From positions 1 to 64,000 of the forward strand of contig JAJFKU010000016.1 in NCBI GenBank assembly GCA_021773035.1: a DNA stretch of 64,000 nucleotides. The letters run 5' to 3'. A program made the translations under genes and the position numbers. The number at the start of each line of letters is the position of its first letter. The stretch's first letter is position 1. Positions 20,939 to 23,762 of the stretch are shown here, piece after piece. This stretch comes from Woeseiaceae bacterium. GTDB taxonomy: Bacteria; Pseudomonadota; Gammaproteobacteria; Steroidobacterales; Woeseiaceae. The notes under the pieces are model-generated. The model did not search any database and was not told the DNA's origin. It saw nothing but the letters and a program-made list of their open reading frames with translations.

Positions 20939-21886
20939 ATGTCGAAGAAAAACATACTCGTTATCGTCGAAAGCGACTGCAAACCAGAGCAAACTATCGA
21001 CAGGGCGCTGTACATAGCCGGGTTGCTTGAGCGCAAACTCGATATTCTGTTCTGCGAAACCTCCTACAGCGCCCTGCCCGGGGGAATCGCCGTATCGAGC
21101 GAGGCTGAAACCATACGACAACATATTCTGGAGTGGCAGGAGAATATTGCTGAGGAACTGGCGGAACCTGTTCGAAATGCCGGCAAGCTCGCGTCGGTGG
21201 AAGTACTGCTCGACCGTCCAATCGCCGACGGCATACTCGCGAAGGCGCTCGACACGGAGCCCTGCCTCGTCGTGAAGGGCACGCAGTTTCACAGCAGCGC
21301 AGAACGTAGCATTCTGGTCGATACGGACTGGCAGCTTCTCAGGAAGTGCCCGTATCAGCTGTGGCTGGTTAAACACCATGAGTTTCACGACGAACCACGA
21401 ATCGCTGCTGCAGTTGACCCAACACACGCGCACGATAAACCCGCGGCGCTGGATCAGATTATCGTCGAAGCGGCGCAGATGGTCGCGAAACTCGTAGGCG
21501 GCGAAGTCGAACTGATTCACACCTACATGCGCCTGTCCGCCGTCAGCAAGGCTGCAACAAAGGCCATGCGGCCTATCAAGCTTCCTATCGACGAAATCGA
21601 TCAACGCATCAAAACGGAACACAGAGAGGCACTCGACAGGCTGGCCGCCGGCAACGGCATCGACTCGGACCATGTCCACCAGCTACCCGGTCGGACACAC
21701 GACATACTGCCAAGCTTCGTGCGCGCCAACGGCATCGACCTCGTCGTCATGGGGGCGCTGGCGCGCTGGGGAATCAAACGAATGATCATTGGCAGTACTG
21801 CCGAGCGCGTTTTGGATCACCTGCCCTGCGATGTCCTGATCGTAAGAGACAACGGAACCTGCGATGAAATAGGCGGTATCGGTTGA
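20939..21886 (+). CDS. Tandem-domain universal stress protein
   Basis: Two Usp domains, C-terminal VMGALARWGIKRMIIGSTAERVLDHLPCDVLIVR. Confidence 0.92.
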   Translation: MSKKNILVIVESDCKPEQTIDRALYIAGLLERKLDILFCETSYSALPGGIAVSSEAETIRQHILEWQENIAEELAEPVRNAGKLASVEVLLDRPIADGILAKALDTEPCLVVKGTQFHSSAERSILVDTDWQLLRKCPYQLWLVKHHEFHDEPRIAAAVDPTHAHDKPAALDQIIVEAAQMVAKLVGGEVELIHTYMRLSAVSKAATKAMRPIKLPIDEIDQRIKTEHREALDRLAAGNGIDSDHVHQLPGRTHDILPSFVRANGIDLVVMGALARWGIKRMIIGSTAERVLDHLPCDVLIVRDNGTCDEIGGIG

Positions 21887-21976: not shown

Positions 21977-22304
21977 TTCTGAGCACTGTTCTTGACCTCG
22001 ACACACTGGCATTTTCGCAGGGTCATCGGTCTGGCAGGGGTATACCGGAATGGCTCCCTGCGGTCCGCTTTATTTCCGGTATACCCCTGCCAGACCGATG
22101 CCTTGTGACAGTGGCCGGTGCATCCCGGTCAGAGCAGATACGAAGTGCTGACCGGACGACCACGTTAAGCGTGGTAAGCGGGCGGGAGAGAGAGTGCTTA
22201 CGGGAAATAAAGCGGACCGCAGGGAGCCATTCCCTGTAAGTACTCTCTCTCCCGCCCGCCTGCGCCGACTTTAAGTGTGTCGAGGTCAAGAACAGTGCTC
22301 AGAA
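21977..22304. repeat. 328-bp nested inverted-repeat element with mutually complementary hairpin loops
   Basis: Outer perfect 30-bp IR 21977-22006/22275-22304; perfect 27-bp stem 22024-22050/22074-22100; second stem 22178-22205/22231-22259; loop regions 22049-22075 and 22205-22231 are exact reverse complements. Confidence 0.95.
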
Positions 22305-22341: not shown

Positions 22342-23658
22342 CTAGGGCACCCCTTCGTAGATACGCACATAGTCCACCTCCATTCGCTGCGGGAATATCC
22401 CGTCGTCGATTCCCCCACCGGATCGCCCCCACATACCTCCCACAGCCACGTTGAGAATCACATGGAACGGGTGGTCATACGGCCATGACTCCCAACCGGA
22501 TTGCTCGTTTACGTAGACGAAATACAGGATGTTGTCCATGAAGACCCGAATCTCCTCTGGCGTCCACTCGAGCGCATAGACGTGAAAATCCGAGTCGACA
22601 CCATCGCTGAGAATTCGTCCTTTCCGCTGCTCCCACTTTGCCCAGTAGTACGCCTGATTGTGCACGGTCCCGTGAACGTGGTTCATCTGATAACCGACGT
22701 GCTCCATAATGTCGATCTCGCCCGAGTTCGGCCAGGCATCACAGCTGCCGCTGCCCTGCCAATCCTCACCGTCTTCACAGCTTGTCGAGTAACGGTAGGG
22801 GTCGCTGGGCAGCATCCAGATTGCGGGCCAGGTGCCTTTACCGGCCGGCAACCTTGCGCGTACCTCGAAACGGCCATACAGGAAATCACCTTTGCCATTC
22901 GAATGTATCCGGCCGGACGTGTACTCGGCATCCCGATAGTCCTCCTTGTGTGCTTCGATGATCAGCAGGCCACCCTCAACTCTGAGGTTCTTCGGGCGCC
23001 CGGTGTACGTCTGATCCTCGTCGTTCACCTTCCTGGACGGCCAAACATCGACCGTCCATTTATCGGCATCCGGTTCGCCATCGACATCGAATTCGTCAGC
23101 CCAAAGCAGTTTCCCCGCTGGCGAATTCCGATTTTTCAGGCGTACGACGACGGCGCTCAGTACCGGTCTCGACGATGACGCGTGGAAATCGATGTTCAGC
23201 TCCCCATCCTCCACGGATACATCGGGAACGGTAACCGACAGTGCAGACCGGGTCTTGCCGTCCCTGAATGACATGATGTCGAGATCGTCGACGATCCGGC
23301 GGTTTTCAGCGAACGCGTCAAATACGCGCTCCCCTCCCGTGAGATCCCGCGGCTCCGTGAACTTCAGCGTCACGTCATAGCGGCCGTTCGCGACCGGATA
23401 GGCAAGCTCGACGTCCCCCTCACGATAGCTTCGATAGATAAACGCGTCCTGCGACCCCTTCACCTCTTCCTGCCAGCCAACGTCACCGCCGCGAACGAAC
23501 TCCTCAGCGCGGTAGGTCGTCCCGTCCGCAGCGACAAACTGCTCACCACCGACATTGACCGCCCAGACGAGATCGGACTCCGAGCCCTCGGGAACGCAGC
23601 CGGAGGCGGCGAGAAATGGCAGTGCCAGCAGCACCCGGAGCAGCAATACAGGTTTCAT
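22342..23658 (-). CDS. GH16 endo-beta-1,3-glucanase (laminarinase-like) lipoprotein with N-terminal malectin-like domain
   Basis: GEIDIMEHVGY catalytic motif; lipobox LAASGC; start MKPVLLLRVL keeps the operator outside the CDS. Confidence 0.9.
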   Translation of the reverse strand: MKPVLLLRVLLALPFLAASGCVPEGSESDLVWAVNVGGEQFVAADGTTYRAEEFVRGGDVGWQEEVKGSQDAFIYRSYREGDVELAYPVANGRYDVTLKFTEPRDLTGGERVFDAFAENRRIVDDLDIMSFRDGKTRSALSVTVPDVSVEDGELNIDFHASSSRPVLSAVVVRLKNRNSPAGKLLWADEFDVDGEPDADKWTVDVWPSRKVNDEDQTYTGRPKNLRVEGGLLIIEAHKEDYRDAEYTSGRIHSNGKGDFLYGRFEVRARLPAGKGTWPAIWMLPSDPYRYSTSCEDGEDWQGSGSCDAWPNSGEIDIMEHVGYQMNHVHGTVHNQAYYWAKWEQRKGRILSDGVDSDFHVYALEWTPEEIRVFMDNILYFVYVNEQSGWESWPYDHPFHVILNVAVGGMWGRSGGGIDDGIFPQRMEVDYVRIYEGVP

Positions 23659-23693
23659 CGCACACGACCTCCAAAAGGTTTTCTCATTCTTGA

Positions 23694-23707
23694 TGACAGC
23701 GCTGTCA
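23694..23707. promoter_or_regulatory. Candidate LacI-type operator
   Basis: TGACAGCGCTGTCA perfect palindrome between divergent GH16 and CBM9-like genes. Confidence 0.85.
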
Positions 23708-23762
23708 ATAAAGCTTACAATAAGCACAGAACGAATACCAATATAGGTATAGAGGGGAAACA

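Follow-up and report, generated by a model that had tools for sequence, protein, structure and literature searches.

The window, a stretch of 64,000 nucleotides from a marine Woeseiaceae bacterium (GCA_021773035.1, contig JAJFKU010000016.1), contains a 328-bp element at positions 21977-22304. As the first-pass annotation of this DNA had placed it, the element lies between two convergent genes, a universal stress protein gene (20939-21886, + strand) and a GH16 gene (22342-23727, - strand); genes were called by a simple script based on codon usage. The position at the border of a glucan locus is incidental, and other copies adjoin hemE, murA and further unrelated genes.

Comparison of loci across genomes resolved the element into two 81-nt hairpin units in inverted orientation. 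They are enclosed by the outer arms A (21977-22007, + strand) and A' (22274-22304, + strand), complementary at 31 of 31 positions, where perfect terminal inverted repeats of 30 bp had been claimed. Arm A is divided into a conserved core (21993-22007; identity 0.84 over 12 copies) and an outer part of 16 nt that is particular to this copy (0.36). Hairpin 1 (B/B') occupies 22022-22102 with the - strand as its constrained strand, and hairpin 2 (E/E'), inverted relative to hairpin 1, occupies 22178-22259 with the + strand as its constrained strand; both correspond to matches of covariance model R1 (22022-22102:- and 22178-22259:+). The apical loops (22050-22072, - strand, and 22208-22230, + strand) both read TAAAGCGGACCGCAGGGAGCCAT and are near-invariant in 169 hairpins. 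Stem B/B' is exact (27/27, 22024-22050 with 22074-22100) and stem E/E' near-perfect (28/31, 22178-22208 with 22229-22259). The spacer (22101-22177, no strand assigned) holds two small hairpins at 22125-22155 and 22160-22174. The terminal repeats, the stems and the small hairpins had been recognized in the first-pass annotation and were found again, as was the mutual complementarity of the two loop regions (L/L', 34 of 35 positions, 22047-22081 with 22199-22233), a by-product of one loop that occurs twice in inverted orientation.

The single-stranded DNA fold of the element has a free energy of -134.2 kcal/mol, compared with -51.9 ± 3.9 kcal/mol for 100 dinucleotide shuffles (z = -20.9). In the minimum-energy fold of both strands A/A', B/B' and E/E' coexist, with A/A' closing a multi-branched structure. 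With the L/L' helix imposed, the fold is 28-41 kcal/mol less stable (-192.5 vs -233.9 on the + strand, -186.3 vs -214.0 on the - strand); the proposed competition between local B and E hairpins and a long-range A/A' plus L/L' fold is therefore unsupported. Cruciform DNA is possible as the acting form.

Structure of the hairpin unit

The repeating unit is a hairpin of about 81 nt whose apical loop reads TAAAGCGSASCGNAGSGAGCCAT on the constrained strand, nearly invariant in the 169 hairpins. The conserved loop, about 23 nt, is itself structured: a GNA triloop is enclosed by inner GC/GC and SC/GS pairs. Covariation links loop positions 10 and 16 (C-G 108, G-C 58, A-T 2, G-T 1), and position 8 follows them; G5-C20 is replaced by A5-T20 in one hairpin pair (L443 of genome G462). 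Stem length is mostly 26-31 bp (median arm 29 nt, interquartile range 26-31) and stem sequence is almost unrestricted. In a gap-free alignment of 59 diverse hairpins, two-sided changes occur at each of the 28 stem pairs, 85.6% of the pair cells hold standard pairs, and covariation scores 0.78, compared with 0.19 for shuffled and at most 0.20 for slid alignments.

Isolated helix mismatches, counted on the loop strand and once per stem family, comprise 33 G-T vs 7 A-C and 36 purine-purine vs 2 pyrimidine-pyrimidine cases, and tandem G-A is present among the non-canonical pairs of that strand. Because the mismatches are biased to G·T and purine·purine on one strand, it is the fold of the loop strand (TAAAGCG...GAGCCAT) that matters, and the constraint on this fold is also seen in place across species. 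The bias is consistent with a constraint that acts on the loop strand in its folded state, be it RNA or single-stranded DNA. The idea of a functional folded strand is supported for separate hairpins with one constrained strand each, and unsupported for the L/L' fold.

A match between the arms of the 81-nt unit and coding flanks was considered as their source and rejected, as the overlap found in a loose alignment vanished under strict scoring.

Copies, host range and orthologous sites

A BLAST search of the element against its own genome, the check proposed at the outset, returned 12 near-full copies with 85-95% identity, as well as several partial copies. Allowing up to 3 mismatches, the 31-nt L sequence was counted 28 times in this genome, and a single-hairpin covariance model gave 30 matches, a count in which the strict filter underestimates weak members. 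Identity among the aligned copies is 0.98-1.00 in the two loops, 0.82-0.94 in the stems, 0.79 in the spacer and 0.36 in the outermost 16 nt. Over the 12 copies stem B has 306 Watson-Crick cells of 306, with 5 pairs changed on both sides and zero intermediates, and it may also be corrected arm to arm; stem E, read on the + strand, has 37 G-T vs 10 A-C cells. In a compact subfamily there is a single hairpin-like core, whose loop contains a 21-nt insert, TCCCGTCAAGCGGGATCGAGA. This sub-hairpin, or a variant of it, is optional and occupies an identical position within the loop in several species (L300, L292, L393, L400, L411); copies on contigs C2, C16, C55 and C60 of the window's genome also carry it.

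The loop was found in the window's genome and in most of the 36 genus relatives searched, with one to more than 50 copies per genome. Outside the family, a single genome from a different family of the order had the loop in the same draw, and the remaining genomes of the order did not; the covariance model adds members in several further families of the order. In a class-wide draw of 387 genomes the loop was confined to the window's genus. The named matches, among those listed, are mostly Woeseiaceae and unclassified gammaproteobacterial metagenome-assembled genomes (MAGs), with a few MAGs labelled Coxiellaceae, Chromatiales, Rhodospirillales and Myxococcota, where contig labels can be wrong. 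The loop hairpin was absent from the viral contigs, plasmids and phages searched.

The units are often paired head to head, at about 140-158 nt, as in the 328-bp element. Among 44 adjacent hairpin pairs, 39 have the loop on the - strand in the first hairpin and on the + strand in the second, and 3 have the reverse arrangement. Spacing within pairs is mostly 135-158 nt, with a shorter group at 92-122 nt, and genome G570 carries tandem arrays of pairs with a period of about 339 nt. Two different loop types are combined in 7 of the 44 pairs and single hairpins are frequent in other genomes, both of which, together with the much weaker long-range fold, tell against the suggestion of a bistable or dimerising RNA held by L/L'. 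Hairpins are concentrated in convergent gaps (63/105 vs 66/234 in the background) and depleted in divergent ones (5/105 vs 48/234). Most are found past the 3' ends of genes, and of the 106 hairpins classified 1 falls inside a called gene.

Between murA and degS the window's genome carries a full element in a 356-nt gap, and a contig of a second genome (G014) stops inside the hairpin; the element is missing from the 28 other loci read at this site, whose gaps, where they were measured, range from -4 to 90 nt. Since the conserved C-terminus of MurA (...IRRVV and stop) falls within the outer arm next to murA in the window's genome, the inverted copy has to be the arm on the degS side. The copies inspected showed no direct target duplication, and the murA site has this inverted copy of its flank instead. 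At hemE about ten genomes are filled; their stems differ, the loop can face either way and the hairpins number one or two, and other genomes have a gap of about 10 nt with no palindrome. From filled and empty sites at hemE and murA in relatives it follows that the repeat inserts. The first-pass view of a structured mobile element lacking its own transposase is supported by these sites, by the dispersed copies and by the absence of a recurrent recombinase gene near them. In one genome (G235, L303) the loop of the hairpin downstream of hemE has diverged and reads ACATAAAGCGAGCGCAGCGAGACAGT; loop variants therefore exist beyond the patterns searched.

At rpsJ-rplC an orthologous pair of hairpins is kept in ten species, with loops 0.89 and 0.95 identical vs 0.67 for the spacer. 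Both partners have changed in place in 6 pairs of one stem and 11 of the other. Loop type and the 21-nt insert also differ from species to species, with no dependence on the stem. In the reduced 1.5-Mb genomes G004 and G011 (L390, L391) the rpsJ stems persist and the loops have lost or changed bases, as if a reader of the loop had been lost in these genomes. The distance from rpsJ to rplC is about 360-750 nt (L388-L437; own copy L411) and includes a conserved promoter-like sequence (TTGTAAT...TATAAT) and a strongly conserved leader of about 250 nt, for which reason an S10-type leader seems to be placed after rpsJ in this genus.

No transposase or recombinase recurs near the hairpins; the recurring neighbours are host genes (rpsJ/rplC, hemE, ABC transporters), and a neighbouring gene was rejected as autonomous partner on this ground. 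Over 60 genomes, including incomplete MAGs, an IS200-like Y1 transposase did not co-occur with copy number: it was not found in G035, G025 and G026, which have 23, 20 and 12 copies of L, and it is present in the L-free genomes G009, G018, G029, G031 and G036. The window's genome has a Y1 gene, and none was found beside hairpins. Between two facing hairpins 1.57 kb apart in G005 lies a 375-aa ORF (L438, 1083-2210), which had no Pfam match. The window gave no Rfam match at the gathering score, and six loci searched at E ≤ 1 gave only sub-threshold long hairpins, nearly all of them miRNA models. The tags GTAG and CGTC were found at the foot of 0-4 of 104 hairpins per tag and side, with about 2 expected. 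A literature search for the loop sequence or for Woeseia repeats returned no description of the hairpin repeat.

Possible explanations and related repeats

We consider it about an even call that the element is a non-autonomous chromosomal hairpin repeat of the order containing Woeseiaceae, putatively recognized in trans via its folded loop. Its spread and maintenance are probably due to a putative factor that recognizes the fold. Such a trans-acting factor would read the folded loop strand by its loop and by the length of its stem; most likely, in our view, it would be a hairpin-processing enzyme of single-stranded DNA that copies or pastes the pair. An enzyme of this kind is favoured on two grounds: at many sites the constrained strand differs from the sense transcript, and the paired hairpins have it on opposite strands. 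The element would then work as a REPIN does, a second pressure coming from the use that the host makes of some copies, and the long locus-specific outer arm at murA would have arisen by snap-back copying of the adjacent gene tail. Several observations weigh against this reading. No transposase recurs near the hairpins and Y1 does not track copy number; conservation in place at rpsJ exceeds the needs of a purely selfish element; the hairpins at hemE occur in either orientation and do not point to one transcript; and the perfect B stems without intermediates could reflect arm-to-arm copying in replication and not selection.

The main rival, which we regard as rather unlikely, is a structured RNA element whose loop strand is transcribed, the hairpin being bound by a protein or processed by a nuclease and its spread being secondary. 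G-U pairs, purine-purine mismatches including tandem G-A, the GNA triloop and the optional 21-nt sub-hairpin are RNA-like and all on one strand, although single-stranded DNA tolerates the same mismatches. A transcribed loop strand is further at odds with co-directional gaps, where 16 hairpins have it sense and 21 antisense (no strand preference), with the single hairpins at rpsJ, where it is antisense to that gene, with the opposite strands of the two hairpins of a pair, and with the lack of Rfam matches beyond chance long hairpins. The preference for convergent gaps, which are often filled over their whole length, and the persistence after rpsJ would suit a transcription terminator or 3'-end stabiliser of convergent genes that was duplicated over time. 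This is improbable, and the intrinsic terminator class was rejected, as T tracts after the stem are not enriched (2/112 and 4/112 vs a background of 4.2%); related genomes also lack any such hairpin at the same gap, and a nearly fixed 23-nt loop is unnecessary for termination.

Equally low is the probability of a REP/REPIN family moved by a RAYT, an IS200-like Y1 transposase. Inverted intergenic pairs near 3' ends, tandem clusters, compensatory changes and the Y1 gene in the window's genome all agree with it, against which stand the foot without GTAG or CGTC, stems of 26-31 bp and not 5-13, and the distribution of Y1, which is present in L-free genomes and was not found in L-rich ones or next to hairpins. 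Neutral palindromes, kept perfect by template switching in replication and with a loop conserved by conversion between copies, would account for the completely paired B stem with its double changes only, for the inverted copy of the murA arm and for the independent variation of loop type and 21-nt insert at a single locus. They do not predict the one-strand mismatch bias, the sharp stem length or the orientation rule, and are very improbable.

In attC sites and at the ends of IS200/IS605 elements the folded single strand is the recognized form, and the stem sequence of attC can vary. The repeat differs in its conserved loop, and its hairpins are not tracked by any Y1 or IS200 gene. ERIC consists of a single long palindrome. 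Like the ERIC/IRU elements (RU-1, PMC2759123), the repeat is a small mobile sequence present in multiple intergenic regions, in that case of a 127-bp class; its two loop-bearing hairpins set it apart from ERIC by description. With MITEs it shares a short, non-coding, dispersed form and inverted terminal repeats. The assignment as a MITE, offered in the first-pass annotation, is not retained in the strict sense, since the terminal repeats vary between copies in their outer 16 bases, no direct target duplications were seen and no matching autonomous element was found.

The repeat works like REPINs and BIMEs (PMC3116915, PMC3733652), with which it shares inverted hairpin pairs, a fairly fixed spacer, many intergenic copies, positions in convergent gaps or at 3' ends, tandem clusters (the G570 arrays) and compensatory changes. 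REP elements carry an unpaired GTAG or CGTC tag at the hairpin foot and a stem of 5-13 bp (PMC3733652), whereas the repeat described here has no such tags, stems of 26-31 bp and no RAYT link, and its conserved part is the apical loop, in place of the stem or foot. It is placed here among the dispersed palindromic repeats, as a variant that lacks three defining features of REPs examined in this analysis, the foot tag, the short stem and the RAYT link. A further reading is put forward tentatively and is judged possible though on the unlikely side: an undescribed recognition system in which a dedicated factor, of the host or of a mobile element, would read the 23-nt structured loop on one strand only, the stem below it being fixed in length and free in sequence, and would thereby copy or regulate sites in the chromosome, with no known transposase or RNA family involved.

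Well-studied dispersed palindromic repeats such as REPs are recognized by stem or foot; here loop and stem length are fixed and the stem letters nearly free, yet nearly always in pairs and strongly biased to one strand, which makes the repeat a clean natural experiment on selection for structure alone in a DNA repeat. The conserved loop provides direct bait for the factor that moves or uses such repeats. The filled and empty sites, the locus-specific exchange of loops and the inverted copy of a gene tail are testable cases of palindrome formation and evolution in bacterial chromosomes.

Some contigs end inside a hairpin loop (the end of C42 in the window's genome, L043; L319; L149), where the repeated loop is only about 31 nt long. 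Strong hairpins may be a hindrance to sequencing.
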